Assembly (NCBI GenBank): GCA_964017155.1
Contig: OZ024854.1
Coordinates: 68,145,254 to 68,209,253 of the forward strand
Length of the DNA: 64,000 nt
Reading direction: 5' to 3'
DNA from: Oasisia sp. SBJ-2009
Taxonomy: Eukaryota; Annelida; Polychaeta; Sabellida; Siboglinidae
Shown: piece after piece, positions 188 to 49,200 of the stretch
Layout of the letters: each line of letters opens with the position of its first letter
How positions within the stretch are numbered: the first letter of the stretch is position 1
Notes under the pieces: generated by a model
The model's database searches: none
Seen by the model: the letters and a program-made list of their open reading frames with translations, nothing else
What the model was told of the DNA's origin: nothing
Position numbers and translations under genes: made by a program

Positions 188-3100
188 CTGGAGATAGAAC
201 AAGTGGGGTTGTTTAGTAACACTGTTCTCTTGCAGTAAAGTCACAAGTTTCAACTGCTGCAGTAATGTATACACAGGAGTAATGATGTAAACATTCATGA
301 CACCATTGTTGAGTCCAGCGGATCAATGATCGTTTCATTTGTGAGCATTCAGAAACTGAGCTTGTGAAATGAGGGTCCCTATTATATGAGAAAATAAGAG
401 GGTCAGTTACAACATAACGACTGCTGTTTTGGTCACATAGTTGGACTAGGTATAACCTACAAATACAAAAAATGTAGACCATGTTTGTGAAAATATCAAC
501 AACAAACACTGTTGGAAAGATTAAACACATAATAAGTTAGGAAATAAAATTACTGTCCTCAATTTTTTCTAAAAAGAATAATTTTAAACACTGCAGGTCT
601 TTACAAATCTGGATTTTAGTTACATAAGAATCACAGAAACTAGACACAACAAAACAATTGTAAGTTAACTATTAAACTGCAACAGAATATTGAGTTAAGG
701 ACAGATGCCTGTAAGTGAAGCGAAGAAGGACTACACATCTCATGTGGGTGAGTGAAGGATTACAAATCTTATGTAGGTGAGTGAAGGACTACACATATTA
801 TGTAGGTGAGTGAAGGACTACACATCTTATGTAGGTGAGTGAAGGACTACACACCTTGTGTGGGTGAGTGAAGGACTACACACCTTGTGTGGGTGAGTGA
901 AGGACTACCCACCTTGTGTGGGTGAGTGAAGGACTACACACCTTGTGTGGGTGAGTGAATGACTACACACCCTGTGTGGGTGAGTGAAGGACTACACACC
1001 TTGTGTGGGTGACTGAAGGACTACACACCCTGTGTGGGTGAGTGAAGGACTACACACCTTGTGTGGGTGAGTGAAGGACTACACACCTTGTGTGGGTGAC
1101 TGAAGGACTACACACCCTGTGTGGGTGAGTGAAGGACTACACACCCTGTGTGGGTGACTGAAGGACTACACACCCTGTGTGGGTGAGTGAAGGACTACAC
1201 ACCTTGTGTGGGTGAGTGAAGGACTACACACCTTGTGTGGGTGAGTGAAGGACTACACACCTTGTGTGGGTGAGTGAAGGACTACACACCTTGTGTGGGT
1301 GAGTGAAGGACTACACACCTTGTGTGGGTGAGTGAAGGACTACACACCTTGTGTGGGTGAGTGAATGACTACACACCCTGTGTGGGTGAGTGAAGGACTA
1401 CACACCTTGTGTGGGTGAGTGAAGGACACATGGAACTTGAGTGCGCGGATGATGTACAGTTCACACTGGACGAGGTTCTCGCGTTGACACCAGTAGGACA
1501 CGCCCATGTCCAGGGGAGGCTGGTCCTTGTTAAATGTCCTGTTGCAAATGTCCAACACATGGATCAGTATTTCTTTCTGATTAACAAATTCATATCAAAT
1601 TAGCACAATACAAAATTAATATAACAACTGTCTATTTAACAATAATGTATTATTATTAAGTTTTTTAGAAGATAGAATGTTTGTCAATGTATACAGTGAT
1701 CAATAACAAATGACTTCAGCCAACATCATGTTGTTTGATACCAATTAACACATACCTACATCAGCCTGAGAATGACAAAAGTTTAATAATTATTTTTTTT
1801 AATAAATAAATATTTTTTACACAAAATCTACGTTCCTAATGTGACATATGTGTAAAATCTAGGTACAAAATTTGAGTGATTGTTTGATTTGCATCAAACA
1901 ATCACTGTAGTGATACAAACTTGCCTGTAGCAGACATTGATGATGTCCGTCAGTCTCAGATGTTCCTCTTCCAACTTTGCAGCTAAATACAGAGACGTTG
2001 TTGCAATCAGCTGAAAACAAAACATCATACGTGTTTAGATAATCCAACTGAAACACAAAAAATATACGATTTGTTATTAAAAATAATGTAACAGGAATAA
2101 CAAGTCAACAACCAGTGCATATTTCTCAAGACAGCGAAGATTACCTGGGACCAGTTTGAAGAAGCTTGCTTATGACATTGTAGTGGTCGATAATTTGTCG
2201 GAAGCCTAAAACATTGTAAAGCTACAGTAGTTGCATTTCATGAGTCTCCTCAGCAGGCATTCTTAGCTGTACCTTGAAATTAGGAGGCGAAAGTTTATGT
2301 TACTTGAAATATTTACGGGATGCTCCCGGCATGTCCACTCTCAATATAATGATTTCTAAGTAGTGAGAGACTGGTATCGTCGGTACTCACATAAGGGTCC
2401 CAGGTGGAGGGATGGAAGTGTGTAGGTACTCACGTAAGGGTCCCAGGTGGAGGGGTGGAAGCGTGTAGGTACTCACGTAAGGGTCCCAGGTGGAGGGGTG
2501 GAAGCGTGTAGGTACTCACGTAAGGGTCCCAGGTGGAGGGATGGAAGTGTGTAGGTACTCACATAAGGGTCCCAGGTGGAGGGGTGGAAGTGTGTAGGTA
2601 CTCACGTAAGGGTCCCAGGTGGAGGGGTGGAAGTGTGTAGGTACTCACATAAGGGTTCCAGGTGGAGGGGTGGAAGCATGTAGGTACTCACGTAAGGGTC
2701 CCAGGTGGAGGGGTGGAAGCATGTAGGTACTCACATAAGGGTCACAGGTGGAGGGGTGGAAGTGTGTAGGTACTCACATAAGGGTCCCAGGTGGAGGGGT
2801 GGAAGCGTGTAGGTACTCACATAAGGGTCCCAGGTGGAGGGGTGGAAGTGTGTAGGTACTCACGTAAGGGTCCCAGGTGGAGGGGTGGAAGCGTGTAGGT
2901 ACTCACGTAAGGGTCCCAGGTGGAGGGATGGAAGTGTGTAGGTACTCACATAAGGGTCCCAGGTGGAGGGGTGGAAGTGTGTAGGTACTCACGTAAGGGT
3001 CCCAGGTGGAGGGGTGGAAGCGTGTAGGTACTCACGTAAGGGTCCCAGGTGGAGGGGTGGAAGTGTGTAGGTACTCACGTAAGGGTCCCAGGTGGAGGGG

Positions 3101-4677
3101 TGGAAGTGTGTAGGTACTCACGTAAGGGTCCCAGGTGGAGGGGTGGAAGTGTGTAGGTACTCACATAAGGGTCCCAGGTGGAGGGGTGGAAGCGTGTAGG
3201 TACTCACGTAAGGGTCCCAGGTGGAGGGATGGAAGTGTGTAGGTACTCACATAAGGGTCCCAGGTGGAGGGGTGGAAGTGTGTAGGTACTCACGTAAGGG
3301 TCCCAGGTGGAGGGGTGGAAGCGTGTAGGTACTCACGTAAGGGTCCCAGGTGGAGGGGTGGAAGTGTGTAGGTACTCACGTAAGGGTCCCAGGTGGAGGG
3401 GTGGAAGTGTGTAGGTACTCACGTAAGGGTCCCAGGTGGAGGGGTGGAAGTGTGTAGGTACTCACATAAGGGTCCCAGGTGGAGGGGTGGAAGCGTGTAG
3501 GTACTCACGTAAGGGTCCCAGGTGGAGGGATGGAAGTGTGTAGGTACTCACATAAGGGTCCCAGGTGGAGGGGTGGAAGTGTGTAGGTACTCACGTAAGG
3601 GTCCCAGGTGGAGGGGTGGAAGCGTGTAGGTACTCACATAAGGGTCCCAGGTGGAGGGGTGGAAGCGTGTAGGTACTCACGTAAGGGTCCCAGGTGGAGG
3701 GATGGAAGTGTGTAGGTACTCACATAAGGGTCCCAGGTGGAGGGGTGGAAGTGTGTAGGTACTCACGTAAGGGTCCCAGGTGGAGGGGTGGAAGTGTGTA
3801 GGTACTCACATAAGGGTCCCAGGTGGAGGGGTGGAAGCATGTAGGTACTCACGTAAGGGTCCCAGGTGGAGGGGTGGAAGTGTGTAGGTACTCACGTAAG
3901 GGTCCCAGGTGGAGGGGTGGAAGCATGTAGGTACTCACGTAAGGGTCCCAGGTGGAGGGGTGGAAGTGTGTAGGTACTCACGTAAGGGTCCCAGGTGGAG
4001 GGGTGAAAACGCTGGAAGAACTTGTGGTAGATGGTAGCTGCGGAGGCGAGGGGCACGGCCTCCATGGTCAACTTGGTGGCTGCAACAAGCAATAGAACGT
4101 ATACCACATCATCTCGTCCTCTCACTATGAACTTTGCCCTATTTCACTTACAAGGTTTCATCCAGGCAGATACGCCAATATGATGAAACTACTCGCACAG
4201 GTAAGTTCTTACATAGCGCAGTATCCAGTCCTCAGGACTGTTCAAGTCAAAGCGCTTTTTTACTTCCCTGGTAGACCTGTTCAATCAAACACCATCTTAA
4301 TGTCTCTGGGAAGCATCCAGTCATGCTGCAATTAATGCGCTAAGGCTGCTCATACAAATATCCACTGCTGTCTATAGCCAGATACTTATTCATACAGCTG
4401 AGTGAACTGGAGCAATGTAGGGAAAAAACTTGCCCACGGTTTTACCACTGCAGTACAAGATTTGAACCCGGTTCTCGTAGTCGAGTGTCTGAATCTCTAC
4501 CCCTGTGCCACTGCGTTCTACATAGCACTCATGTATTTATTAACACAGTCACTGATTACACAGCCTAGTGAGCCTACCATATTTACAACAACAATATTGC
4601 ATTAACATAGGGAATAACTTACCAGCTTCAGTCATGAACCGAATCACTTTGAAGTGAAGCTTCTTAATGTTGGCCAT
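1..4677 (-). CDS. CCNQ: Cyclin-Q (CDK10-activating cyclin), 5' part, five exons
   Basis: Cyclin-Q (FAM58, cyclin M) binds and activates CDK10, a nuclear and basal-body kinase. The exons join as complement of 4623-4677, 3982-4079, 1925-2010, 1406-1538 and 1-187, giving 559 coding bases in one frame. Family hallmarks appear in order: an N-terminal HFKVIRFMTEA, the cyclin-box helices with TIYHKFF, LAAKLEEEHLR with the Lys and Glu that contact the kinase in cyclins, LVQCELYIIRALKF, SFTHPHK, LLHYL, and TAWAILRDSYHG followed by EHIAVAVLYFALQ. Order and spacing match human cyclin-Q as I remember it (about 250 residues), so about a quarter of the protein is missing off the left edge. The start is the first ATG of exon 1 and gives MANIKKLHFK. 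Introns 2 and 4 begin with arrays made from the exon junction, and intron 3 uses a GC donor. Confidence 0.93.
188..726. other. CCNQ intron 4, non-repeat part
   Basis: AT-rich intron sequence between the exon 5 acceptor and the 29-bp array. I see no coding similarity, RNA gene or transposon signature. Confidence 0.5.
727..1430 (-). repeat. 29-bp minisatellite built on the CCNQ exon 4 donor, about 24 copies
   Basis: Units of 29 bp continue directly from exon 4 into intron 4. On the coding strand each reads CTTCACTCACCCACACAAG then gtgtgtagt, so the codons for SFTHPHK and the donor are duplicated about 24 times. Copies farthest from the exon (727-840) are more diverged, as expected if the array is homogenised near the exon. 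Confidence 0.93.
1406..1538 (-). CDS. CCNQ: CCNQ exon 4
   Basis: Encodes TFNKDQPPLDMGVSYWCQRE, then NLVQCELYIIRALKFHVSF and THPHK. The Glu-containing LVQCELYIIRALKF is the conserved third or fourth helix segment of the cyclin box. The acceptor is gcaacag and the donor CACAAG|gtgtgt. It ends in phase 0. The last 20 coding bases plus the donor are the repeated unit of the neighbouring 29-bp array. Confidence 0.93.
1876..1905. other. Perfect 13-bp hairpin in CCNQ intron 3
   Basis: A 13-base arm (1876-1888, gtgattgtttgat) and its exact reverse complement (1893-1905) are separated by four bases. It begins 20 bases after the GC donor of exon 3. One arm and flanking bases recur at about 7008-7033, so it may be part of a dispersed element. 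Confidence 0.85.
1925..2010 (-). CDS. CCNQ: CCNQ exon 3, with a GC donor
   Basis: Encodes LIATTSLYLAAKLEEEHLR and then LTDIINVCY, the core of the cyclin box; human cyclin-Q has LIAMSSIYLAGKVEEQHLR here. The acceptor is gttttcag. The donor is CTACAG|gcaagt, a GC-AG intron, with the otherwise ideal context that GC donors usually need. The exon starts in phase 0 and ends in phase 2. Confidence 0.92.
2011..2384. other. CCNQ intron 2, end next to exon 3
   Basis: Unique AT-rich sequence between the exon 3 acceptor and the 43-bp array. No coding potential was recognised. Confidence 0.5.
2385..4006 (-). repeat. 43-bp minisatellite built on the CCNQ exon 2 donor, about 38 copies
   Basis: About 38 near-identical 43-bp units run without interruption into the 3' end of exon 2. 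On the coding strand each unit contains the end of exon 2 (CACCTGGGACCCTTAC or ...TTAT) followed by gtgagtacc, so every copy carries a consensus donor. Units differ mainly at CpG-type positions (cgtaagg/cataagg, gcgtg/gtgtg). A marker variant (ggagggatgg) recurs at 2922, 3223 and 3524, exactly 301 bp or seven units apart, which shows duplication of blocks of units. Confidence 0.95.
3982..4079 (-). CDS. CCNQ: CCNQ exon 2
   Basis: Encodes the first cyclin-box helices, including AVPLASAATIYHKFFQRF and ending in WDPY. The acceptor is gttgcag and the donor TTAC|gtgagt; the exon starts in phase 1 and ends in phase 0. Its last 24 coding bases and the donor are the template of the 43-bp array that fills the start of the following intron. 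Confidence 0.92.
4200..4535 (-). mobile_element. tRNA-headed SINE, copy 1 (in CCNQ intron 1)
   Basis: On the minus strand the element starts with a tRNA-like promoter: an A-box-like GTGGCACAGGGGTAGAG and a B-box-like GGGTTCAAATC about 35 bases later. It then has a body ending in a GCGCTTTGACTTG-like segment and 'actgcgctatgtaag'. The same element, about 330 bp and in the same orientation, lies at about 41505-41815. Two full-length diverged copies, one in each gene, identify it as a retroposon family rather than a tRNA gene. Confidence 0.8.
4623..4677 (-). CDS. CCNQ: CCNQ exon 1 (start codon)
   Basis: Fifty-five coding bases encode MANIKKLHFKVIRFMTEA plus one base of the next codon. The donor reads GCTG|gtaagt, a strong consensus. 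In human cyclin-Q the matching segment is also N-terminal and precedes the first cyclin-box helix. No further upstream in-frame ATG with similarity was seen. Confidence 0.9.
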
Positions 4678-7257: not shown

Positions 7258-7720
7258 CACATGCACCACCTGGTGACAGCGAATCAGCCAAGAACTGATT
7301 TGCCACCTCGTGACTCAATTGGGAACTGATGCACCACCTGGTGATTCAACTGGGAACTGTTGCGCCACCTGGTGACTCAACTGTGAACTGTTGTGCCACC
7401 TGGTGACTCAATTGGGAACTGTTGCACCACCTGGTGACTCAGCTGATAACTGATGCACCACCTGGTGACTCAGCTGGAAACTGTTGCGCCACCTTGTGAC
7501 TCAGCTGGGAACTGATGCAACACCTGGTAATACAGCTGAGAACTGATGCACCACCGGGTGATTCAGCTGAGAACTGATGCACCACCTGGTGACTCAGCTG
7601 TGAACTGATGCAACACCTGGTGACTTAGCAAAGAACAACTGATATGCCACCTGGTGACTCAGCTGGGAACTGATGCAACACCTGGTGACATAGCAAAGAA
7701 CAACTGATATGCCACCTGAC
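7258..7720. repeat. 31-bp minisatellite with E-box and TGACTCA motifs
   Basis: About 14 units of roughly 31 bp in the intergenic region. Most contain caccacctggtgactcagct: an E-box CACCTG, often a second (CAGCTG), and eight copies contain TGACTCA, the AP-1 consensus. Five of these extend to TGACTCAGC, the core shared with NF-E2 and antioxidant response elements. Units become irregular toward the right end, with a longer spacer containing 'aaagaacaactgatatg'. Confidence 0.85.
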
Positions 7721-10186: not shown

Positions 10187-13100
10187 CTACAAACACCGAG
10201 AGGACATGTGTCACACGGGAAACAACAACAACACACTGAGAGGACATGTGTCACACGGGAAACAACAACAACACACAGAGAGGACATGTGTCACACGGGA
10301 AACAACAACAACACACAGAGAGGACATGTGTCACACGGGAAACAACAACAACACACAGAGAGGACATGTGTCACACGGGAAACAACAACAACACACTGAG
10401 AGGACATGTGTTACACGGGAAACAACAACAACACACTGAGAGGACATGTGTCACACGGGAAACAACAACAACACACCGAGAGGACATGTGTCACACGGGA
10501 AACAACAACAACACACTGAGAGGACATGTGTCACACGGGAAACAACAACAACACACCGAGAGGACATGTGTCACACGGGAAACAACAACAACACACTGAG
10601 AGGACATGTGTCACACGGGAAACAACAACAACACACAGAGAGGACATATGTCACACGGGAAACAACAACAACACACTGAGAGGACATGTGTCACACGGGA
10701 AACAACAACAACACACCGAGAGGACATGTGTCACACGGGAAACAACAACAACACACTGAGAGGACATGTGTCACACGGGAAACAACAACAACACACAGAG
10801 AGGACATGTGTCACACGGGAAACAACAACAACACACTGAGAGGACATGTGTCACACGGGAAACAACATCAACACACAGAGAGGACACATGTCACACAGGA
10901 AACCACAACAACACACAGAGAGGACACATGTCATATGGGAACCAACAACAACACACAGATAGGACATGTGTCACACAGGAAACAACAACAATAACACACT
11001 GAGAGGACACATGTCACACAGGAAACAACAACAACACACAGAGAGGACACATGTCACACAGGAAACAACAACAACACACAGAGAGGACACATGTCACACA
11101 GGAAACAACAACAACACACAGAGAGGACACGTGTCACACAGTAAACAACAACAACACACAGAGAGGACACATGTCACACAGGAAATAACAACAACACACA
11201 GAGAGGACACATGTCACATGGGAAACAACAACAACACACAGAGAGGACACGTGTCACACAGTAAACAACAACAACACACAGAGAGGACACATGTCACAGA
11301 GGAAATAACAACAACACACAGAGAGGACACATGTCACATGGGAAATAACAACAACACACAGAGAGGACACATGTCACACAGGAAATAACAACAACACACA
11401 GAGAGGACACATGTCACATGGGAAACAACAACAACACACAGAGAGGACACGTGTCACACAGTAAACAACAACAACACACAGAGAGGACACATGTCACAGA
11501 AGAAATAACAACAACATACAGAGAGGACACATGTCACATGGGAAATAACAACAACACACAGAGAGGACACATGTCACACAGGAAATAACAACAACACACA
11601 GAGAGGACACATGTCACATGGGAAACAACAACAACACACAGAGGGGACATGTGTCACACGGGAAACAACAACAACAACACACTGAGAGGACACATGTCAT
11701 ACAGGAAACAACAACAATACACAGAGAGGACATGTGTCACATGGGAAACAACAACAACACACTGAGAGGACACATGTCACACAGGAAACAACAACAACAC
11801 ACAGAGAGGACACATGTCACACGGGAACCAACAACAACACACAGAGAGGACATGTGTCACACAGGAAACAACAACAACGACACACAGAGAGGACATGTGT
11901 CACACAGGAAATAACAACAACACACAGAGAGGACACATGTCACACAGGAAATAACAACAACACACAGAGAGGACACATGTCACATGGGAAATAACAACAA
12001 CACACAGACAGGACACATGTCACACAGGAAATAACAACAACACACAGAGAGGACACATGTCACATGGGAAACAACAACACACAGAGGGGACATGTGTCAC
12101 ACGGGAAACAACAACAACACACTGAGAGGACACATGTCACACAGTAAACAACAACAACACACTGAGAGGACACATGTCACACAGGAAACAACAACAACAC
12201 ACAGAGAGGACACATGTCACACAGGAAACAACAACAACACACAGAGAGGACATGTGTCACACAGGAAATAACAACAACACACAGAGAGGACACATGTCAC
12301 ACAGGAAATAACAACAACACACAGAGAGGACACATGTCACATGGGAAATAACAACAACACACAGACAGGACACATGTCACACAGGAAATAACAACAACAC
12401 ACAGAGAGGACACATGTCACATGGGAAACAACAACAACACACAGAGGGGACATGTGTCACACGGGAAACAACAACAACAACAACACGCAGAGACAACTCA
12501 CACAGCGGCTGTGACTGGGGCGGTGGTGGTCGCAGGTCTCTTGTCGATGCCCTGGTAGAGCAGTCGGTCGCGACACGTGACCTCCGTCTCGTACAGGTCC
12601 TTCACTCGCAGCAGCTCCCGGTTGCGCTCCTCCAGCGTCGTGATCGTCTCCCGGTACCGCCACTGGAGCTGCTGCATCTCCTCCTGGAGCACAACACACG
12701 CATGATACACACAACACACGCATGACAGCACACAACACATGCATGATAGCACACAACACACGCATGAGAGCACACAACACACGCATGAGAGCACACAACA
12801 CACGCATGAGAGCACACAACACACGCATGACACATACAACACACGCATGACAGCACACAACACACACATGACAGCACACAACACACGCATGACAGAACAC
12901 AACACACGCATGACAGCACACAACACACGTATGACAGCACACAACACACGCATGACAGCACACAACACACGCGTGACAGCACACAACACAAACATGACAG
13001 CACATAACACACGCATGACAGAACACAATACACGCATGACACATACAACACACGCATCACAGCACACAACACACGCATGACAGCACACAACACACGCATG

Positions 13101-16100
13101 ACAGCACACAACACATGCATGAGAGCGCACAACACACGCATGACAGCACACAACACACGCATGACAGCACGCAACACACGCATGACTGCACACAACACAC
13201 GCATGAAAGCACACAACACACGCATGACAGCACACAACACACGCATGACAGCACGCAATACACGCATGACAGCACACAACACACGCATGACAGCACACAA
13301 CACACGCATGACAGCACACAACACACGCATGACAGCCCTCAACACATGCATGACAGCACACAACACATGCATGACAGCACACAACACACACACATGACAG
13401 CACACAACACACGCATGACAGCACGCAACACACGCATGACAGCACACAACACCCGCATGACAGCACACAACACACGCATGACAGCACGCAACACACACAT
13501 GACAGCACGCAACACATGCATGACAACACACAACACATACATGACAGCATGCAACACATGCATGGCAGCACGCAACACATGCATGACAGCACGCAATACA
13601 CGGATGACAGCACGCAACACATGCATGACAGCACGCAACAATCGTCACAGCACACAACACACGCATGACAGCACGCAACACATGGATGACAGCACGCAAC
13701 ACATGCATGACAGCTCGCAACACACGCATGACAGCATGCAACACATGCATGACATCACGCAACACATGCATGACATCATGCAACACACACATGACAGCAT
13801 GCAACAGACACATGACAGCACACAACACACGCATGACAGCACGCAACGTACGCAGGACAACACACAACACATGCATGACAGCCCGCAACACACACACATG
13901 ACAGCACACAACACACGCATGACAGCACCCAACACACGCATGACAGCACACAACACACGCATGACAGCACACAACACATGCATGATTGACAGCACACAAC
14001 ACACACATGACAGAACACAACACACACATGACAGCACACAACACACGCATGACAGCACACAACACACACATGACAGCACACAACACACGCATGACAGCAC
14101 ACAACACATGCATGACAGCATGCAACATATGCATGACAGCATGCAACACACGCATGACAGCACGCAACACACGCATGACAGCATACAACACACACATGAC
14201 CACACGCAACACATGCGTGACAGCACACACAACACACGCATGACAGCACACAACACATGCATGACAGCATGCAACACACGCATGATAGCACACAACAAAT
14301 GCATGACAGCACGCAACACACGCATGATAGCACACAACAAACGCATGACAGCACGCAACACACGCATGACAGCACACAACACACGCATGATAGCACGCAA
14401 TACACTGGTGACAGCACACAACACAAGCATGATAGCATGCAATACACGCGTGACAGCACATGACATGCACGTATGACAGCATTCACAGTACATACATGAC
14501 AGTACATAAAGCATGCACGCATGTTAGCACACACACGACATGTATGCATGACAGAACGCACAACATGCATGCGTGATAGCATGCATAACATAGCACGCAC
14601 AAAGCATACAACATGCACACATGACAAGTTTCAATACCCACTGCTTATGACTGCTAGGACAGCATTGAATGGCAGCCTGTGAATGAACCTGTGCTAAATT
14701 GTAGTTGACATTATATAGCAACATTGTAGCTATCCACAGATGTCACATGATCTCTTTGATAGACTAAGAGGTAGCTTATAAGTATAACTTAGCTGGAACA
14801 AAACAATGCAGTTATTTAGCAAAAGTATGTGAAAATCTATAAATAACATTAACAAGTCTAGGAATAAAAAAATGCTAACATTTTTAAGAAGCAAAAAATG
14901 TTAGACGAGCAATCTTTTGAAAATGTTAATGACAGCCAATCGTCGACAGGATGCGAGTTTGCTGCGAGACTGACCTCCAGGGCTCGTCGTGAGTTCTCAA
15001 AGTTCTTGCGCATGTCAGCTTCGCGACTGTCGCGGAGTCGGTCGATGTCGTCCCTCGCCTTCTCCTGCTCCGCCAGGAAGTTGTTCACCTCCACCAGCTT
15101 CGCATTCAGCTCCAGGCGCATCTGTTTCTCCAGCTCATTCCTGTCGCTGCTGTTGGTCGCCTGCTGACTCTGTCGGGACAAACAGGCTCAGTCGGTCACT
15201 GGCAGCACAAACAGTCTTGGTCAGTCACTGGCTCGTGACAGGCACTTGGCATGTATGGACAATGTCTAGGTAGTTTCCTGTTTTAGAAAATAGTTCCGAT
15301 TGATCTGAAGAGTTTGCTTCGTTAAATGTTAAAAAGACTTTTTGGAAGCCAGTATCAGGTACAACAGTGTACCTGTTTGTGAGCGTGCATGTCTGTATCT
15401 GTGTGTGTGTGTACGTGTGTGTGTGCGCGTGCGTGCATGCACGAATATAATAAAAACATTATAGATTTCTACTTGATCTATATAAATTTATCCTTGTTTT
15501 TAATTGGTTAGTGTTGATAAGAATTGTTAATATTTACTATGGTTGTATGTTTCTGATGTGCTACCTGGCAGGTTAAATATCACCCCAGACTTATCCAATG
15601 GACGTATCTGGATAAATGTTACATCAACGTCAAAGTCTGGTGCTTATCCAACAGTCACAATAACACGTAATTGTGCATCAGAACCTGACACTGACTCACT
15701 GTCTAGCCAACCAATTAGGTACTTCTGAAACAGGCTGTGATATGGTAATCAACACATCAGAGAAGACAGTCTGGCCAAGTAGGTGCCATACTAGGCATGC
15801 TGGCACACACTAGGTGGTAGTCACTAAGCCTGTTGGTACCATACAAGGCATGCTGGCACACACTAGGTGGTAGTCACTAAGCCTGTAGGTGCCATACAAG
15901 GCATGCTGGCACACACTAGGTGGTAGTCACTAAGCCTGTTGGTACCATACTAGGCATGCTGGCACACACTAGGCGGTATTCACTAAGCCTGTTGGTACCA
16001 TACTAAGCATGCTGGCGCCCACAAGACATGTTGATATACCGAAAGCAGAAAGCATGGTCACATGTTACTGTTAAAGATACTTCAACTTCACTGAAACAAT

Positions 16101-34200: not shown

Positions 34201-37200
34201 AACTGAAAATGTCGTGATCGCAACGAAAATAAAACATAGAATATTTGTTTGGATTAGGGTGCCTCAAATTTGAAAGTATACATTAGATACTGATATTAAT
34301 TTTCAAAATAAATGGGGCAATGGGCAAGGAGTACAAATAAAAAATAGAAATACAAGGACATAATATCTATAAAAAAAACGGTATAGAAAAAAAAGAATGA
34401 AACAACACTTGAAAATGTATATTTTAATCAAAAGTCGAGAGAAAATCTGCGTGATGTAGAAATAGAGGTTAGATCAAGTGACCTTGACCTGGCACTGACC
34501 TTGTCGTAGTCAGCCTGTATGCGGTTAAAGAGCGTGGTGATCTCCGCGTGGCTGCCGGGGTGGGTCTGTTCTTGGATCTGCTCCAGTGCGTGCTTCAAGT
34601 TGACGTTCTCGTGTTGCACGGTCTGTAGTCTGACACCACACAGCAGACAGTGGGTTAGTTGGGATAAAGTATCGCTTAAAATCGCACTCAATTTTTTTAT
34701 TATTATTTACTTATCCAACGGACAAGTAAAATAAAAACTCCACTTGTCAATATTGTAATGTTCTACCTATCAAATCCTACCTAGCCACAATCTATGTTGG
34801 TATAAGGGTGGCTAAAGAGAAATAGGGGCATGCGAGCTAAAACAGTTAGATGGAACAAACTGGACTCTCATGGAAAACATTAGAAGTTCATATTCAATTC
34901 AAATTAAAAAGAAGACATTAGCCAATACAGCACATCAGTTATAATATTCTGTGGCAGTGTAATCACTGTGATCACTGTGTATATAAACTGTGATCATTGT
35001 GATCACTGTGTATATAAACTGTGATCATTGTGACGTGAACTGTGCATATAAACTGTGATCATTGTGACGTGAACTGTGCATATAAACTGTGATCACTGTG
35101 ACGTGAACTGTGTGTATAAACTGTGATCATTGTGATGTGAACTGTGCATATAAACTGTGATCACTGTTACATGAACTGTGTGTATAAACTGTGATCACTG
35201 TTACATGAACTGTGCATATAAACTGTGATCACTGTGACGTGAACTGTGCATATAAACTGTGATCACTGTTACATGAACTGTGCATATAAACTGTGATCAC
35301 TGTGACGTGAACTGTGCATATAAACTGTGATCACTGTTACATGAACTGTGCATATAAACTGTGATCATTGTTACATGAACTGTGTGTATAAACTGTGATC
35401 ACTGTTACATGAACTGTGCATATAAACTGTGATAACTGTTACATGAACTGTGCGTATAAACTGTGATCACTGTTACATGAACTGAGCATATAAACTGTGA
35501 TCACTGTTACATGAACTGTGCATATAAACTGTGATCACTGTTACATGAACTGTGCATATAAACTGTGATCACTGTTACATGAACTGTGCATATAAACTGT
35601 GATCACTGTGACGTGAACTGTGCATATAAACTGTGATCACTGTTACATGAACTGTGCATATAAACTGTGATCACTGTTACATGAACTGTGCATATAAACT
35701 GTGATCACTGTTACATGAACTGTGCATATAAACTGTGATCACTGTTACATGAACTGTGTGTATAAACTGTGATCACTGTGACGTGAACTGTGCATATAAA
35801 CTGTGATCACTGTTACATGAACTGTGCATATAAACTGTGATCACTGTTACATGAACTGTGCATATAAACTGTGATCACTGTTACATGAACTGTGCATATA
35901 AACTGTGATCACTGTTACATGAACTGTGCGTATAAACTGTGATCACTGTTACATGAACTGTGCATATAAACTGTGATCACTGTTACATGAACTGTGCATA
36001 TAAACTGTGATCACTGTTACATGAACTGTGCATATAAACTGTGATCACTGTTACATGAACTGTGCATATAAACTGCAGTACTCACTTCTCCAGGAGAGAC
36101 TCCAGCCTTGTGTTGATCCTGATGTTTTCTTCCTGTGCCGGCAGCGACAGTAAAACACAGAGGATGAGATGAGTCTAGACGTAACATACACTTAGTGCAA
36201 TATTGTTCAGTGTACCGTACCTCAACCCAGTATGCCCCAATTCTCCCCAACCCAGTGTGTCCTAACCCTGCCCACCCAGCCCAAGCCGAGTATACATCAG
36301 CCCAGCCTTGCCTAATGTGCCCAGCCCAGCCCAGCCCAGCCCAGCCCAGCCCAGCCCAGCCCAGCCCAGCCCAGCCCAGCCCAGCCCAGCCCAGCCCAGC
36401 CCAGCCCAGCCCAACATAGTGACAATGTAAAGAAATTAATCATCATTATGAAATTGATTCGTTACTTTACATCAATTTTCGTCAATCTCCATCCCACAAC
36501 GTCAATACTCGGAGCGAACCTTTTCCTTGCGCACCAGGTCGTCCAGCGCCTCCTGGTGGAGGCGGCGTTGGTCCAGTTCTCGCCTCACGATGGTCAGCTG
36601 CGTCGTCCGCTCATTCAACGTCGCATTCGCTATGTGCAACTGACAACAACAAACACACTTTAGACTCACCAATCAACTGACAACAACAAACACACTTTAG
36701 ACTCACCAATCAACTGACAACAACAAACTCACTTTAGACTCATCAATCAACTGACAACAACAAACTCACTTTAGACTCACCAATCAACTGACAACAACAA
36801 ACACACTTTAGACTCACCAATCAACTGACAACAACAAACTCACTTTAGATTCACCAATCAACTGACAACAACAAACACACTTTAGACTCACCAATCAACT
36901 GACAACAACAAACACACTTTAGACTCACCAATCAACTGACAACAACAAACACACTTTAGACTCACCAATCAACTGACAACAACAAACTCACTTTAGACTC
37001 ACCAATCAACTGACAACAACAAACACACTTTAGACTCACCAATCAACTGACAACAACAAACTCACTTTAGACTCACCAATCAACTGACAACAACAAACAC
37101 ACTTTAGACTCACCAATCAACTGACAACAACAAACACACTTTAGACTCACCAATCAACTGACAACAACAAACTCACTTTAGACTCACCAATCAACTGACA

Positions 37201-40197
37201 ACAACAAACACACTTTAGACTCACCAATCAACTGCATTATGTGATTACATTAATGTCAATGACGTAAGTAGCATTTTAATTATTTATGAAATGATCGTTA
37301 AGAGAACTGTCACACGTTGAAACATTAATGATTAAAAGGCTGCCCAACCCTCAATGCAGCGCCTCAGTTCCAAGGCAATGGCAGGATATATTTGGGTACA
37401 TTCCTGAGTCACTTTGTGACCATTCTATGTGACCACGTGAGGTGACTGTCCACTAGTTGAGGAGACTGTCGACTAGTTGAGGTGACTGACCACTAGTTGA
37501 GGTGACTGTCCACTAGTTGAGGTGACTGTCCACTAGTTGAGGGGTTTGTCCACTAGTTGAGGTGACTGTCCACTAGTTGAGGGGTCTGTCCACTAGTTGA
37601 GGGAACTGTCCACTAGTTGAGGGGTCTGTCCACTAGTTGAGGGGTCTGTCCACTAGTTGAGGGAACTGTCCACTAGTTGAGGGGTCTGTCCACTAGTTGA
37701 GGGGTCTGTCCACTAGTTGAGGGGTCTGTCCACTAGTTGAGGGAACTGTCCACTAGTTGAGGGAACTTTCCACTAGTTGAGGGGTCTGTCCACTAGTTGA
37801 GGGGTCTGTCCACTACTTGAGGGGTCTGTCCACTAGTTGAGGGAACTGTCCACTAGTTGAGGGAACTGTCCACTAGTTGAGGGGTTTGTCCACTAGTTGA
37901 GGGGTCTGTCCACTAGTTGAGGGGTCTGTCCACTAGTTGAGGGAACTGTCCACTAGTTGAGGGGTCTGTCCACTAGTTGAGGGGTCTGTCCACTAGTTGA
38001 GGGAACTGTCCACTAGTTGAGGGAACTGTCCACTAGTTGAGGGGTCTGTCCACTAGTTGAGGGGTCTGTCCACTACTTGAGGGGTCTGTCCACTACTTGA
38101 GGGGTCTGTCCACTAGTTGAGGGAACTGTCCACTAGTTGAGGGGTCTGTCCACTAGTTGAGGGGTCTGTCCACTACTTGAGGGGTCTGTCCACTAGTTGA
38201 GGGAACTGTCCACTAGTTGAGGGAACTGTCCACTAGTTGAGGGGTCTGTCCACTAGTTGAGGGGTCTGTCCACTAGTTGAGGGGTCTGTCCACTAGTTGA
38301 GGGGTCTGTCCACTAGTTGAGGGAACTGTCCACTAGTTGAGGGGTCTGTCCACTAGTTGAGGGAACTGTCCACTAGTTGAGGGAACTGTCCACTAGTTGA
38401 GGGGTCTGTCCACTAGTTGAGGGGTCTGTCCACTAGTTGAGGGAACTGTCCACTAGTTGAGGGAACTGTCCACTAGTTGAGGGGTCTGTCCACTAGTTGA
38501 GGGGTTTGTCCACTAGTTGAGGGGTCTGTCCACTAGTTGAGGGAACTGTCCACTAGTTGAGGTGACTGTCCACTAGTTGAGGTGACTGTCCACTAGTTGA
38601 GGTGACTGTCCACTACTCCACTGCCCCAGCTCTGTCCTCACCTCATTCTCCACCTTGTTAGACCTCGTGTCTGTCTCCGCCAGGCGCCGGGTGACGATCT
38701 ACAACACAATGTGTTGTTTACATTACACACTGCATAATAACACACTGAGCACACTCCCAACACACTGGTCAACAACACATGATTACAGTTTTATTTTGTT
38801 GTTAAATCTGGCTGTAGGTACTAGTCTCAGAGAGCACAGATGTCACAAATAATGTACATGTTGCAGACATGTTGAGGCCATGTGAGTGACTACCTCGCTG
38901 TGCCTACCTCTAGGTTCTCCTTCAGCATTGACACTTCCTGGTCTTTTCGCTGCAGTTGAATCCGCAACTCTTCAATTTCACGCTGCTTCATCCTGTCAAA
39001 CATACGTTTACATAAACAGTGCAGTCTCTCGTGGGTGGCCGTCTGGCCGAGGGCTCTAGTCTGACTGAACCGTCCAATCTCCAAGTCTCAGTGGCTCTTT
39101 CAAGGACCCTCAAACCAACACACACTCTACACTCTTCCTGGGATTGTCACCAACATTCCCAACTAACCCACACAACGGTCTAGTTGTCACTAACAGTGCT
39201 ATCTGTCAAATGACATACATCTTACAACTGGCTAACAGATCAAAAATCAAACTGTAAACATTTCTGGCAATTATCATTTAATAACATAAATAATAGTGAA
39301 ATATTACTACTAATAATAACGACATAAATCAAATCAATCAAACAAACAGCAGTGACAGTTTCAACACAAACCAAACAATCACTAAACAAGAACTCAGATT
39401 GTGACGACATTGTTGAGATGAAGTGAGTGACTGAGGACTGTGTGTGAGTGACTGAGGACTGTGTGTGAGTGACTGAGGACTGTGTGTGAGTGACTGAGGA
39501 CTGTGTGTGAGTGACTGAGGACTGTGTGTGAGTGACTGAGGACTGTGTGTGAGTGACTGAGGACTGTGTGTGAGTGACTGAGGACTGTGTGTGAGTGACT
39601 GAGGACTGTGTGTGAGTGACTGAGGACTGTGTGTGAGTGACTGAGGACTGTGTGTGAGTGACTGAGGACTGTGTGTGAGTGACTGAGGACTGTGTGTGAG
39701 TGACTGAGGACTGTGTGTGAGTGACTGAGGACTGTGTGTGAGTGTTTGAGTAGAGCAGAGGTGAACTAACGACTCCGTGTTGTTCCGGGCCTCCATGGCT
39801 CTCTCCAGCTCCACTGTCGTACTCTGGAGTCGCGCCTGAACCAGCTTCAACTGTCAACAGAAAACACAACTTTATTTAAGTTACTTGGATTCGAATATGG
39901 TGAGAATTGACGACATTTCAACAGAGCTGTTTACAAACAAGTCAGTTATCAGGTCTGTATGGTGGATAGTTCCACTAGTTTTCTCTGACTTTATTCCTAG
40001 TACTATATACATGTGTCTCTAGTGTCGCTGTGTTCATGGTCCCTCTCTCTCCCTATGCCTCCATCTCTCCCTCCCTCCCTCACCCTCTCCCTGTCTCTCT
40101 CTCCCACTCTCCCCATCTCTCCCACTCTTTCCCTATCCCTCCCCCTCTCTCTCTGTCTGTCTCTCTATATATATATCTATATATATATATATATATC

Positions 40198-40235: not shown

Positions 40236-43200
40236 TATCTGTTCAGATGTTACTTCCAGTTCCACTTACGTCCGCCTCCAGCTTCTCCCTGTTCATGCTC
40301 TCTGAGTTCAGGCTGTACTCCAACTTGTCATTGTGAGCCTTCAACTGGCTCAGGTCGCGGTTGTATGTGTGACTGGCCTGAGTGAGCGCGTCCTCATTGA
40401 GGCGCTGCAACAACAACACAGCTCATCAACCACTGGCAACAACAACACCTAACAACAACACAGCTTATTCAACCACTGGCAACAACAACACATAACAACA
40501 ACAACACAGCTCATTCAACCACTGGCAACAGCAACATATAACAACAACACAGCTCACTGGCAACAACAACACATAACAACAACAACACAGCTTATGCAAC
40601 CATTGGCAACAACAACACATAACAATAACAAAAATGTGTGGCTCAGCCCCACAATTTTATGGTTTCTCAACTGCATACATAATGAGTCCTTCTGTATGTC
40701 AATATGCTAACTTTGGGACATCATGGTTTGCAATCGTATCTCCTCCCAGGGGACGAGGACCAGTCACTCTTTCTGACCCACCAACTGGGGAGATGTTCAA
40801 AACGTAGGCTTATTGAGATAAGTGCAATTCCTAACCACGACCTCAAAATGAGCAGAAAAAGGACACTTTTTCTCAAGAATGCTGATCAAACTTGCAGGTA
40901 AATAAGAAATAAACAACAGACGGAGAATATCTGTCATCTTTGTTTAGAACTACATGTATATGAGTACTAGAAGGGCACCAACTGGTGGAGGATTGTGCAA
41001 GAGAGGCTAATCTGGAAACACATTGTGAGGCATCTGACTGTTTATTACATTTAAAGTGTTACAAATGAAATAACCTGCAGGCGGTGGAGACTGGTTGTTA
41101 CAAGATCAAATAATACAAAGACATAAACAAACACACTCACAATTTCCACTTTCAGCTCCTCTATCTTGCGAATGAGTTCCTGGTTCTCTGTGCTAAATGA
41201 ATCGTGGTCATCTCGACTTCGCTGTTTCGTTCTATCCAGCTCCATCTGGTGGCAGATATTACAGAATCTTTCAGTTGCTTTTGTCAAAATGAAGTGTACT
41301 GGAACCGGAGGTAACTTGGGAAAGTTGGTAAAGTAAAAGTGTTCCTTTAAAATGTATCTGAATCTTTGCCCAGATCTCTAACAAATACATATCCTTTACA
41401 TGTTCTTCAGACTGACATGATTACATTCCACAGGTGCATTAAAACAACATTTAGAATATATAAATCTGATGTTGTAAAAACAAAACAGTGTACGACAGCA
41501 ATGCTTCAAACTTCTTATATAGCGCAGTCTCCAATCCTCACGACCGTTCAAAGGGCTTTACACTTTACTTCCCTAATAGACCTGTTCCCTCAGACACCTG
41601 GGAGACATCCAGCCATATGCTACAATTAATGCTGCACAAAGGCTGCTCATCCACCACTGTCTACAGCCAGATACTCATTTGTACAGCTGAGTGAACTGGA
41701 GCAATGTAGGGTGAAAAAACTTGCCCAAGTTTTTAACACCACAGCACAGGATTCGAACCCGGGTTCTCGTAGTCGAGATTCTGAAGCTCTACCCCTGAGC
41801 CACTGCGCTCTACAAGAACATAACCCTAACCCTCACACACACAAGTACTTAGGCCTCACTTTGAGTGCGTAGTTTTCCGCCTTCACTCTCTCAACATCCT
41901 TCACATGTTCTTCGACTGACTGGTCCGACTGAGAGAAGCGGTTCAGCAGCTCCACCTAGTGGGAAACACATTAGTTGAGTCACATGACCTGTCTGTCTGA
42001 TCTGCTGTAGTTGTCGTGGTGACATCATGAACAAATTGAGTTGTTGGACTGAGGTGTGTAGTCACTGTGTAGTCACTGTGTAGTCACTGTGTAGTCACTG
42101 TGTAGTCACGGTGGTGTCTCAGTTGTTGTTGGTTCTGAGTGCGGGTGTCAGCAGTGGAACACAACTGTGATGTACATCACAAGTGTACACAACTGTGACG
42201 TACATCACAAGTGTACACAACTGTGGTGTACATCACACGTGTACACAACTGTGGTGTACATCACAAGTGTACACAACTGTGATGTACATCACAAGTGTAC
42301 ACAACTGTGGTATACATCACAAGTGTACACAACTGTGGTGTACATCACAAGTGTACACAACTGTGATGTATATCACAAGTGTACACAACTGTGGTGTACA
42401 TCACAAGTGTACACAAATATGATGTACATCGCAAGTGTACACAACTGTGATGTACATCACAAGTGTATACAAGTGTGATGTACATCGCAAGTGTACACAA
42501 CTGTGATGTACATCACAAGTGTACATAACTGTGATGTACATCGCAAGTGTGCACAACTGTGATGTACATCACAAGTGTACACAACTGTGATGTACACCAC
42601 AAGTGTACACAACTGTGATGTACACCACAAGTGTACACAACTGTGATGTACACCACAAGTGTACACAACTGTGATGTACACCGCAAGTGTACACAACTGT
42701 GATGTACATCACAAGTGAACACAACGGTGAGGTACATCACAAGTATACACAACTGTGATGTACATCGCAAGTGTACACAACTGTGATATACATCGCAAGT
42801 GTACACAACTGTGATTTACATCACAAGTGTACACAACTGTGATGTACATTGCAAGTGTACACGACTGTGATATACATCACACGTGTACATGACGGTAATG
42901 TACATAGCAAGTGTACACAACTGTGACGTACACCACAAGTGTACACAACAGTGATGTACACCACAAGTGTTCACAACTGTGATGTACACCACAAGTGTAC
43001 ACAACTGTGATGTACACCACAAGTGTACACAACTGTGATGTACACCACAAGTGTACACAACTGTGATGTACACCACAAGTGTACACAACTGTGATGTTCA
43101 TCACAAGTGTACACAACTGTGATGTACATCGTAGGTATGCGTATAGTCACCATGACAGGTTGTAACGTGTGCCAGATTTGCTTCAACTTTGTCTGGTTTG

Positions 43201-46200
43201 TACTCATTAACATCATGTTCTTAACACTACGACAAATAAGTAGACGGCAGGTGGCACATAAAATTACATTTAATAAACCTGATGCCATATTGCCAATTTT
43301 AACGTTGCAACCACAAAAGTGTCAAGTGTAACCAAAATATTCAACTAGGAAGCACCAGCCACGACAGAGACAGTGGACCGTCCAGAAGCTCTGAGAACTG
43401 TCCTTTGAAGTTGGGTGTGACCTACCTGGGCCCACAATCAGGTAACTTATGTTAGTAAAGAAACATAAAAGAAGACCACACAGATAGAGTAAGAATGCGG
43501 GGGTCGGGCAGGGGTAATGTAGGGGGTACACTCACCAGCTCGTTTCGAACAGCCTGGGGGGAAGAGAAGAGAAATATTAGTTACCCACACCCTCAAACAT
43601 GTTAGTGCCAGGACTTGACAGACCAGACAGGTTCAGTCTCACATTCTGACTCTACCCTTAGACATTTTAACAAACAGCCTGTCAGTATAACTGCTCTCAC
43701 ACACAGCCATAGGGCCAGTGTTGTCTCTCTAGATTACACTGCACGTAAACAACTCTAAGCACATCTTCAATCAAATAATGATGTACAAAAAGAGTTAAGT
43801 AGAACATTCTTTACTAGACCGCATTTTGTTTCTATTTACATATAATGTCTCTCAACAAGGCATTTATGAAGAACATGTGACCAACAGATTCTGCTAACAA
43901 CACAGCGTAGCTGAAGTAACATTACAAAACCAACGATGCCACTGAATGAGTGGAAGTGAAGAAAGAGGCACTTCTACCGAGAAGTGTCAACGAGGCAGAT
44001 ATCAAGCAGAGTCAACTGACAAGCAGCGAGAGAGCGAGGGACGAGACTGACCGGGTCAGTGAGAGTGAGGGACGAGACTGACCGGGTCAGTGAGAGTGAG
44101 GGACGAGACTGACCGGGTCAGTGAGAGTGAGGGACGAGACTGACCGGGTCAGTGAGAGAGTGAGGGACGTGACTGACCGGGTCAGTGAGAGTGAGGGACG
44201 AGACTGACCGGGTCAGTGAGAGTGAGGGACGAGACTGACCGGGTCAGTGAGAGAGTGAGGGACGAGACTGACCGGGTCAGTGAGAGTGAGGGACGAGACT
44301 GACCGGGTCAGTGAGAGAGTGAGGGACGAGACTGACCGGGTCAGTGAGAGTGAGGGACGAGACTGACCGGGTCAGTGAGTGTGAGGGACGAGACTGACCG
44401 GGTCAGTGAGAGAGGGAGGGACGAGACTGACCGGGTCAGTGAGAGAGGGAGGGACGAGACTGACCGGGTCAGTGAGAGAGGGAGGGACGAGACTGACCGG
44501 GTCAGTGAGAGAGCGAGGGACGAGACTGACCGGGTCAGTGAGAGAGCGAGGGACGAGACTGACCGGGTCAGTGAGAGAGCGAGGGACGAGACTGACCGGG
44601 TCAGTGAGAGAGGGAGGGACGAGACTGACCGGGTCAGTGAGAGAGCGAGGGACGAGACTGACCGGGTCAGTGAGAGAGGGAGGGACGAGACTGACCGGGT
44701 CAGTGAGAGAGCGAGGGACGAGACTGACCGGGTCAGTGAGAGAGCGAGGGACGAGACTGACCGGGTCAGTGAGAGAGCGAGGGACGAAACTGACCGGGTC
44801 AGTGAGAGAGTGGAGGGACGTGACTGACCGGGTCAGTGAGAGAGCGAGGGACGAGACTGACCGGGTCAGTGAGTGAGGGAGGGACGAGACTGACCGGGTC
44901 CGTGCCGGAGTCGTGAGGGGCGGAGCTGATCTTGTGGAGCTGCTGCTGCTGGACCAGACTGTCCGCGTTGAGCTTGTCCTGGAGCTCCCGCGTGGCTCGC
45001 TCGTGGCTCAGCTTGCTCTGGGCGTAGTCCAGCTCCTCCTCCAACTGGAGCCACAGGACATGGTCAGTGCGTGGTCAGACATGGGTCAGTCGCCCTCTTA
45101 TGGTACAGGTCAGTCACCTCATTATGTTACATGTTACAGTCATCTCATTATGTTACATGTTACAGTCATCTCATTATGTTACATGTTACAGTCATCTCAT
45201 TATGTTACATGTTACAGTCACCTCATTATGTTACATGTTACAGTCACCTCATTATGTTACATGTTACAGTCATCTCATTATGTTACATGTTACAGTCACC
45301 TCATTATGTTACATGTTACAGTCATCTCATTATGTTACATGTTACAGTCATCTCATTATGTTACATGTTACAGTCACCTCATTATGTTACATGTTACAGT
45401 CACCTCATTATGTTACATGTTACAGTCATCTCATTATGTTACATGTTACAGTCATCTCATTATGTTACATGTTACAGTCATCTCATTATGTTACATGTTA
45501 CAGTCACCTCATTATGTTACATGTTACAGTCATCTCATTATGTTACATGTTACAGTCATCTCATTATGTTACATGTTACAGTCACCTCATTATGTTACAT
45601 GTTACAGTCACCTCATTATGTTACATGTTTCAGTCATCTCATTATGTTACATGTTACAGTCACCTCATTATGTTACATGTTACAATCATCTCATTATGTT
45701 ACATGTTACAGTCATCTCATCATGTTACATGTTACAGTCACCTCATTATGTTACATGTTACAGTCACCTCATTATGTTACATGTTACAGTCATCTCATTA
45801 TGTTACATGTTACAGTCATCTCATTATGTTACATGTTACAGTCACCTCATTATGTTACATGTTACAGTCATCTCATTATGTTACATGTTACAGTCACCTC
45901 ATTATGTTACATGTTACAGTCATCTCATTATGTTACATGTTACAGTCACCTCATTATGTTACATGTTACAGTCACCTCATTATGTTACATGTTACAGTCA
46001 CCTCATTATGTTACATGTTACAGTCATCTCATTATGTTACATGTTACAGTCACCTCATTATGTTACATGTTACAGTCATCTCATTATGTTACATGTTACA
46101 GTCACCTCATTAGGTTACATGTTACAATCACCTCACTATGTTCATGTTACAGTCATCTCATTGTGTTTGTGTTACAAGTCTTCTACAATATCACACATCT

Positions 46201-49200
46201 CACTACTTTCCAGTGCTAAAATGTGATTGGTTTCTCCGATGAACAAATAACAACAGTTCAAACAGCTCTACACCAGTCACCAGCCACAGTCATGCCTTTG
46301 TTACTCTCATATAACAATGTCAAAGTGAGGCTCCAGTCTGGCTGATACAGACTCTTACTCTTATGAGCTGGGCAGCCTCTGTTAGAGTTGACCTCACTCG
46401 CTTCATGTTTGACCTTAGAGCACTCAGTTGACCTCACCTGCTTCACCTTTGACCTCAGAGTCCTCATCTCCATATCGGTGTTCCTCAGCTGCAGCTCCAT
46501 GTCCTGCTTCCCCTCCAACTCCCTGAAACACACAAGGTCACCTAGGCTGGGCTCATAGACAGGGTCACCTAGGCTGGGCTCATAGACAGGGTCACCTAGG
46601 CTGGGCTCATAGACAGGGTCACCTAGGCTGGGCTCATAGACAGGGTCATCTAGGCTGGGCTCATAGACAGGGTCACCTAGGCTGGGCTCATAGACAGGGT
46701 CACCTAGGCTGGGCTCATAGACAGGGTCACGTAGGCTGGGCTCATAGCAAGGGTCACCTAGGCTGGGCTCATAGCAAGGGTCACCTAGGCTGGGCTCATA
46801 GAGAGGGGTCACCTAGGCTGGGCTCATAGCAAGGGTCACCTAGGCTGGGCTCATAGAGAGGGTCACCTAGGCTGGGCTCATAGCGAGGGTCACCTAGGCT
46901 CGGCTCATAGGGAGGGTCACCTAGGCTGGGCTCATAGAGAGGGTCACCTAGGCTGGGCTTATAGGGAGGGTCACCTAGGCTGGGCTCATAGCAAGGGTCA
47001 CCTAGGCTGGGCTCATAGAGAGGGTCACCTAGGCTGGGCTCATAGGGAGGGTCACCTAGGCTGGGCTCATAGCAAGGGTCACCTAGGCTGGGCTCATAGG
47101 GAGGGTCACCTAGGCTGGGCTCATAGCAAGGGTCACCTAGGCTGGGCTCATAGGGAGGGTCACCTAGGCTGGGCTCATAGGGAGGGTCACCTAGGCTGGG
47201 CTCATATCAAGGGTCACCTAGGCTGGGCTCATAGCAAGGGTCACCTAGGCTGGGCTCATAGGGAGGGTCACCTAGGCTGGGCTCATAGCAAGGGTCACGT
47301 AGGCTGGGCTCATAGCAAGGGTCACCTAGGCTGGGCTCATAGAGGGTCACCTAGGCTGGGCTCATAGCAAGGGTCACCTAGGCTGGGCTCATAGAGAGGG
47401 TCACCTAGGCTGGGCTCATAGCAAGGGTCACCTAGGCTGGGGTCATAGAGAGGGTCACCTAGGGTAGGCTCATAGCAAGGGTCACCTAGGCTGGGCTCAT
47501 AGAGAGGGTCACCTAGGCTGGGCTCATAGAGAGGGTCACCTAGGCTAGGCTCATAGAGAGGGTCACCTAGGCTGGGCTCATAGAGAGGTTCATATAGGCT
47601 GGGCTCATAGTGGCAAGGCTGTCATCTAACAATGCAACCATGGTAACATAGACTGCTCCCCAACAGTGCCACCATGGTGACGTAGACTGCTGTCTGTTAG
47701 GGTCAGAATATCATACAAGTTTGACCGCCGTCCACTCACCGGGTGAGTTGTTCTTCTTTCATGGTGAGCTGGTCCCGTACTTTGGTGAGGAGGATCTCCG
47801 TGCTCTGTCTCTGCTCCATCTCCTTGCTCAAGTCAAACCTACAACACACACCACAGTTGTTGGGGGAACCTACAAAGTTGTCTAAAGGTCAAGTGTGTTT
47901 AGTCCTAAACATGAGGCCACTAGGTTCTCGTTGTCTCATTCATTCCTATCATAAAATATCAAGAATTTTATTTTACACTCTCAAACACTTCCCTTGAACA
48001 TCTCCACATCCAGTCATTTCCCGCTCCATCTTTTCGTCATTTCTATCCTAATCTTCCCTTCCTCCCTCACCCGGGCTGTGTTCCTCAGCCCCCCTCCCCC
48101 TCTGTAATGTCATGAGTCACAGAAGACTGTCCTGACTGACCACTTGACCACTCACTCAAGTCGCCGGATCTTTGCCTCGAGGTCAATCTTGGCCTGTTCC
48201 AGCGACGACTTTGCCTTCGTCACTGTCTCCAGCTTCCTGCAAGCAGCACTGAGTGACAACTGACGCCAACACTGGCAGAAACACAAATGTTTACTAAGAT
48301 GACCAAAGCATTATCCATAATTTAATTACTTTGCATAATCAAACAGTAAACATTGTTTCTCCTTCCATAAAAAGTCCACTGAGAATGCTTAGTTACATTT
48401 CTGTGACAAACAAAACTACAATTATGTTATAAATTGACAACGTAGTTCAGTACTGATTATGATAGATTGAGACAGTTGTCACAGAGGCTGTGACTTTGTT
48501 AATGATGCAACTAGTACAACGTCAACAGGACAGCTCTAGTCAGACTGGAACTGACCGAATCAGTTCAGCCTTCTCCTTCTCAAATGACTTGCGTCTGTTC
48601 TCCAGCGATGTCTTCATGCTACGCTCACGGTCCAACTTGCGCTGAGTCTCCCGCAATTGGTCTTGCAGCCTCGTTGTGCTCGTCATATCTGTAACCATGA
48701 CAACCACTCACTGTTACCATGGCAACCACTGAGAGTACCACGACAATGTCTTGTAACCACGTCATCCACCCACATCAACTGTAATAACAACTCACTGGCC
48801 TATGACAACCCATCACAATCACCATGACAACACACAGCTTCCATGACAACCACTTGCAGTAATCACAGCTTACAACAACCAACACAAATTATTTAAAAAT
48901 ACAGAGATAATGCAAAGTTGGTGTAAGCTATTTGTCTAATAATTTGTCTTTTTCCAGTTTATTAAAATTAATAATAATGCCATAGTTCTTCAACAATGTG
49001 AAGACGTACCATTGGAGATGTTGAAGTTGAAGTGTCCGCCTACACCACCGCTGTAGGGAGTGGTTGGTACGTCCTGGGAGACTTCAGTACTTGTGTACGA
49101 CAGTGCGTCGTCATCAACAACGTTCGTCCGTGACATATCAAACTGGAAGAAAGTTGGGGACACTCCTCGTGGTCTGGAAAGAGCACATGGCATGGTTGTT

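Follow-up and report, generated by a model that had tools for sequence, protein, structure and literature searches.

The window analysed here is a stretch of 64,000 nucleotides (nt) from the annelid Oasisia sp. SBJ-2009 (contig OZ024854.1, positions 68,145,254 to 68,209,253), in which tandem-repeat arrays lie in the introns of two neighbouring genes, CCNQ and an ANKRD26-type gene, both on the minus strand. In this neighbourhood, the arrays contain or abut splice junctions more often than random placement gives. The two genes are located as follows.

1 to 4677, minus strand, continuing beyond the window: CCNQ (cyclin Q) gene; exons 4677-4623, 4079-3982, 2010-1925, 1538-1406 and 187-1
9217 to 53614, minus strand: coiled-coil part of the ANKRD26-type gene; 30 exons in the model, ankyrin part outside the window

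When the five CCNQ exons of the window were spliced together at GT-AG sites and one GC-AG site, they formed a single open frame, whose product matched Cyclin_N and solved cyclins. The GC-AG intron follows exon 3, whose donor at 1925 reads CAG/gcaagt. A 214-amino-acid protein, P0001, encoded on a contig of 1,146 base pairs (bp), was 94% identical to CCNQ and aligned to the genome exon by exon; because its contig is much shorter than the gene, P0001 most likely represents a relative's spliced transcript. In the second gene, the chain of exons is colinear with the Pfam family CCDC144C (residues 72-605 against positions 1-529 of the 534 in the profile, 176.5 bits), and its exons outside the window encode ankyrin repeats (Ank_2, 1.3e-44); the name ANKRD26-type is a putative assignment from its sequence. 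As protein searches with this gene found no relative, the evidence for its exon ends comes from coding score, phase and the Pfam profile. Six dubious predicted exons (49173, 44823, 30955, 27130, 60194 and 58515) were excluded from the window model.

Arrays were located on the whole window by Tandem Repeats Finder (TRF). Those that contain a splice junction are listed below, with the labels used for exons of the second gene in brackets.

725 to 1427, minus strand: 29-bp array, 24.2 copies, running across the donor of CCNQ exon 4 (1538-1406) and including 22 nt of the exon
2382 to 4005, minus strand: 43-bp array, 37.8 copies, running across the donor of CCNQ exon 2 (4079-3982) and including 24 nt of the exon
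44024 to 44904, minus strand: 33-bp array (spacings 31, 33 and 34), 27.2 copies, spanning the ANKRD26-like donor of exon 45044-44895 (W15), 10 exon nt inside
32382 to 34049, minus strand: 76-bp array, 21.9 copies, spanning the ANKRD26-like donor of exon 34172-33984 (W26), 66 exon nt inside
23793 to 24115, minus strand: 51-bp array, 6.3 copies, spanning the ANKRD26-like donor of exon 24151-24101 (W35, low coding score of 4.6), 15 exon nt inside
36637 to 37234, minus strand: 37-bp array, 16.2 copies, containing the acceptor of exon 36639-36520 (W23), only 3 exon nt inside
46396 to 46449 (ends approximate), minus strand: decayed second copy of the junction at the donor end of exon 46522-46438 (W14)

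These unit sizes and copy numbers agree with those that an earlier note on this DNA had given for six junction arrays, and the decayed duplicate that it reported at W14 was recovered as a 20/24-nt local copy of the junction word at 46438. Its statement that the arrays are built from the splice junctions they abut held for the five donor arrays; the W23 array does include the acceptor, but with those 3 exon nt only.

Each donor array presents its exon end with several potential donors. The GT was kept in 20/24 copies of the 29-bp array, 38/38 of the 43-bp, 27/27 of the 33-bp, 21/22 of the 76-bp and 7/7 of the 51-bp array, that is, in 113 of 118 copies. P0001 crosses both array-bearing CCNQ joins (WDPY/LIA and THPHK/FLLHYL) with zero residues inserted, and the W15 exon fitted the family profile slightly better when it ended at the first copy (178.6 bits) than with one extra copy (174.2 bits). 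The spliced proteins would thus need the exon-proximal copy only, and the functional site is probably one end of a ladder of near-identical sites, as had been proposed. Reading through from the exon into the intron met a stop after 15-93 nt at the donor arrays, and the unit length was not a multiple of three in three of the five. Distal copies were more diverged at 725-1427 and 32382-34049 and not at 2382-4005, 23793-24115 or 36637-37234, while the register broke in the other arrays, and no conclusion on the polarity of decay was drawn.

Multiple donors at an exon end are known from a minisatellite of the human gene IFI6, whose unit is reportedly 12 bp long. According to PMC4526556, downstream repeat units of this minisatellite (IFI6 is also called 6-16) act as donors, and one could suppose that the extra donors or pyrimidine tracts found here were likewise selected, to reinforce splicing or to yield alternative isoforms. 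The retention of GT in nearly all copies would fit such selection; however, recent homogenisation without selection accounts for the high count as well. In IFI6 the downstream units are used, whereas here the relative's P0001 and the protein family appear to fit the first copy, and the early stops make use of downstream copies unlikely. Moreover, donor strength did not differ between the spanned donors (median 7.7 bits) and the other 22 (7.5 bits; P 0.93), which is evidence against the idea that the copies back up weak donors. We consider selection for such a function very unlikely, and no function of the arrays is evident.

The placement of the arrays was then compared with chance. The test covered the intronic arrays of CCNQ and, as far as 53614, of the second gene that had a TRF period of at least 10 and a span of at least 70, which gave 26 arrays in 33 introns; arrays at 54.8-64 kilobases (kb) and the intergenic array at 7292 were untested. 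Each array was collapsed to one unit, on the assumption that arrays grow from within, and placed at random in the 24.4 kb of intron in 5,000 shuffles. Since the hand-made list of 26 had missed a C/T-rich stretch at 40040-40165, the test was repeated with this stretch and with a fully automatic TRF list of 27 arrays. Six of the 26 arrays spanned a junction, against 2.1-2.2 expected when spanning is tolerated (P 0.015-0.018); P was 0.021 with the added stretch and 0.036 with the automatic list. Among arrays of at least six copies, 6/19 were spanning (P 0.0024). The window had been chosen for its spanning arrays, so these P values are not selection-free; abutting arrays and flanking DNA are freer of this effect.

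A much stronger excess was found when proximity was counted. Fifteen of the 26 arrays spanned a junction or lay within 30 nt of one, compared with 2.2 expected under an intron-only null and 4.1 under a spanning-tolerant null, with 0/5,000 shuffles under either, and this result held for every array list. Among the 20 non-spanning arrays, nine were within 30 nt of a junction (1.7 expected under the intron-only null; 3.1 under the spanning-tolerant null, P 0.001), indicating that the earlier list of junction arrays, which lacked most of these 20, was incomplete, as arrays stopping just short are enriched too. A TRF-free test gave a local copy of at least 17/24 of the 24-nt junction word at 6/33 donors and 1/33 acceptors; the W23 acceptor word has a local copy of 17/24. 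Among 1,243 intronic words outside arrays, 2.1-2.7% had local copies, and among 1,980 random intronic words including those inside arrays 36-37% did, a rate that is high because arrays occupy so much of the intron.

These counts bear on the simplest explanation, namely that minisatellites are dense, that duplications fall uniformly, and that those covering a junction persist since they leave one good splice site in place. About two spanning arrays would be expected in this way, the second gene with 4/24 spanning (P 0.12) is compatible with it, and the whole automatic list gave only P 0.036. It does not predict that more than half of the 26-27 arrays lie at or near a junction where about four are expected, nor that non-spanning arrays crowd there under the same null. 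The earlier note had offered selection that tolerates only exon-preserving duplications as one cause. Such tolerance may explain which junction duplications survive; it cannot explain their excess, because duplications deep in the intron should be tolerated at least equally. Chance with tolerance is therefore possible but unlikely.

The arrays that abut a junction without containing it are listed here, each with the distance that separates it from the junction.

10189 to 12479, minus strand: 40-bp array, 57 copies, occupying its whole intron except for 2 nt at the acceptor of exon 10186-10044 and 22 nt at the donor of exon 12683-12502
12690 to 14481, minus strand: 21-bp array, 85 copies (W40); acceptor of exon 12683-12502 at 6 nt, not inside the array
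24771 to 25338, minus strand: 23-bp array, 24 copies; donor of exon 25458-25360 at 21 nt
31920 to 32008, minus strand: 24-bp array, 3.7 copies; acceptor of exon 31915-31718 at 4 nt
34974 to 36075, minus strand: 34-bp array, 32 copies; donor of exon 36132-36086 at 10 nt
37438 to 38615, minus strand: 20-bp array, 59 copies; donor of exon 38698-38642 at 26 nt
39423 to 39744, minus strand: 21-bp array, 15 identical copies; donor of exon 39850-39771 at 26 nt
40408 to 40631, minus strand: 46-bp array, 5 copies; acceptor of exon 40404-40270 at 3 nt
46536 to 47610, minus strand: 27-bp array, 40 copies; acceptor of exon 46522-46438 at 13 nt

W40, which had been thought to belong to the junction-built arrays, stops before its exon and only abuts it. 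The array at 39423-39744 was also considered as junction-spanning and rejected, as an exon end extended into it fitted the family worse (164.4 against 178.6 bits); the donor of this exon is weak (0.7 bits), which leaves the exon end less certain. A further 67-bp array of 2.5 copies, 10 nt from the next CCNQ donor, was not entered in the counts. Several acceptor-side arrays are rich in T and G and almost free of AG. The AG-poor ones are those at 10189-12479 (6 AG per kb, 21 expected), 12690-14481 and 31920-32008. Purging of AG from acceptor-side arrays was considered as a general rule and is suggestive only, the pattern being inconsistent across arrays. Away from junctions, a 16-bp array of 159 copies at 16326-18871 lies deep in a 4.9-kb intron, has no sense-strand AG and is a counter-example to the choice of junctions. 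The intergenic array (7292-7718) has units bearing CAG/GTGG-like motifs, and no exon was found there.

Outside the window, the sample was 240 kb of the 764-megabase genome (33 contigs), with the exon finder trained on the window. Usable multi-exon genes came only from two flanking blocks, B1 and B2, and the test used 12 of their 17 predicted exons (4/4 in B1 and 8/13 in B2). Three arrays were omitted: B2:19116-20673, which lies at a distance from either junction; one with 1.9 copies; and one that ends 27 nt before exon B1:31805, whose intron has no upstream exon in the model. As listed below, three further donor-spanning arrays with units of 30-55 bp were found.

Flanking DNA, N-terminal part of the second gene: 36-bp array, 3.2 copies, spanning a donor, 9 exon nt inside
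Flanking DNA, N-terminal part of the second gene: 55-bp array, 8.6 copies, spanning a donor, 49 exon nt inside
Flanking DNA, third gene, nuclear-receptor-like: 30-bp array, 9.8 copies, spanning a donor, 14 exon nt inside

The third gene appears nuclear-receptor-like from a zinc-finger motif; a Pfam search with its submitted exons gave no match. In this set of 13 arrays and 10 introns, the three spanning arrays compare with 0.64 expected (P 0.024), which also argues against uniform duplication with tolerance, and four arrays within 30 nt or spanning compare with 0.7 under the intron-only null (P 0.004) or 1.3 under the tolerant null (P 0.038). The view that junctions are chosen beyond random placement was thus borne out by placement shuffles in the window and the flanking DNA, at this local scale. 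Block B1 (C1:68105254-68145253) is array-rich in its first 26 kb beside the window, including a 26-bp array of 171 copies, and arrays cover 16.1 of its 40 kb compared with 1.7-5.1 kb in B2-B5.

When the two sets were pooled, a difference between the two sides of the intron became apparent. Among 39 arrays, eight spanned a donor and one an acceptor (binomial P 0.039), and the acceptor case has only 3 exon nt inside. The eight spanned donors compare with 1.5 expected from seed coverage (Poisson P 0.0002). Abutting arrays were balanced, with five at donors and six at acceptors, one array being counted for both. The 8:1 ratio for spanning together with the 5:6 balance for abutting arrays suggests seeding on both sides, followed by selection against acceptor ladders.

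The earlier note had known of no described class of this kind. Such a class has been published: PMC3087553 describes lancelet "mirages", tandem repeats across exon-intron boundaries in the globins BflGb6 and BflGb9, and, citing Adh3, mirages with units of 10-72 bp, with length instability and at both kinds of boundary. PMC3902484 reports a mirage in lancelet PGBD5 and cite Adh and TnC, with no aberrant messenger RNA. The arrays found here resemble mirages in being minisatellite-like duplications over exon-intron boundaries with many intact splice signals, in affecting several genes per genome, and in having the authentic splice site at one end. Their units (29-76 bp in the window, 30-55 bp in the flanking DNA) compare with 10-72 bp in Adh3 and 150-160 bp in the globins, and copies reach 38 here compared with 3 or 6 units in the globin example. 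They differ from mirages in the strong donor bias and in the many arrays that abut a junction without containing it. In human segmental duplications, variable internal tandem repeats sometimes lie at exon-intron boundaries and alter gene structure; PMC2812944 gives an average of about 4 copies of 30 bp, in recent paralogues, with about half in coding sequence. Among the matches listed from open-licence papers, no report of mirage-like arrays in annelids was found; PMC12783039 treats intronic minisatellites of earthworms, and its available passages do not place them at splice junctions.

Mirages are not known to have been reported outside cephalochordates so far, whereas Oasisia is an annelid. 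The closest named proteins to its CCNQ among the matches listed were nemertean (60%), and no lancelet name was among them. In the CCNQ tree, which had no lancelet row, the window sequence fell outside 86 rows containing all labelled deuterostomes (95/94) and near nemertean and annelid rows with weak support. The mitochondrial contig, ordered by translation, reads nad3, nad2, cox1, cox2, atp8, cox3, with no atp6 between atp8 and cox3, which we take to be the annelid arrangement. The class being known, the new elements are its probable occurrence in a further phylum, the arrays that abut junctions and the preference for donors.

For lancelet globins, PMC3087553 proposes that such repeats are remnants of duplications that created introns, and other cases of intron gain by tandem duplication are mentioned in the literature. 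That the arrays of Oasisia arose in this way seems to us most improbable, as they stand at one end of introns that also contain hundreds of bases of ordinary sequence.

We consider it probable that the arrays are mirage-type minisatellites, in which a short local duplication at or beside a junction was later expanded. Seed duplications would be commoner around junctions, on the donor and the acceptor side alike, and co-transcriptional splicing would then act as a filter on them. A donor ladder may be tolerated, for the correct donor would be transcribed first and be pairable before its copies emerge; use of a later donor copy would mostly shift the frame or add a stop. In an acceptor ladder, the wrong acceptors would be exposed first and the correct one last, and such ladders would mostly be removed by selection. 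Acceptor-side arrays would survive chiefly when they end short of the AG and the exon.

Several observations weigh against this interpretation. Spanning is only moderately significant, with P from 0.015 to 0.036 depending on the array list, and not significant in the second gene alone. All tested arrays come from a single neighbourhood, close to where contig C1 ends; elsewhere, the 160 kb of B3-B7 yielded 21 exons of low confidence and a single doubtful spanning row (B3:15406, 1.9 copies at a low-confidence exon), which was left uncounted, and no other array lay within 40 nt of these low-confidence predicted exons. The donor bias is based on nine arrays, and lancelet mirages occupy both boundaries. 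Finally, the acceptor-side array at 46536-47610 is AG-rich, and the deep arrays at 16326-18871 and 16191-16286 have no AG.

Other features of the region were noted. A dispersed repeat of about 310 bp, resembling a short interspersed element, occurs at 4203-4522 and 41509-41814, in one intron of each gene, with 78% identity. A reverse-transcriptase-like open frame lies at B2 29456-30003, beyond the N-terminal exons of the second gene. Rfam and transfer RNA scans gave no matches.

More tentatively, splice junctions may be hotspots of short tandem duplication in animals generally, through a process tied to transcription or splicing, with annelids and lancelets as independent cases and a first-transcribed-wins filter that keeps donor ladders and purges acceptor ladders; we regard this as a doubtful extension. 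If a genome-wide excess of arrays at junctions were true, it would separate mutation from selection at splice sites and show where duplications start. The donor and acceptor asymmetry, if true, would be a natural experiment on how the spliceosome chooses among near-identical sites. Mirages would then be no lancelet peculiarity, and exon ends, with up to 66 coding bases here, could join in minisatellite homogenisation.

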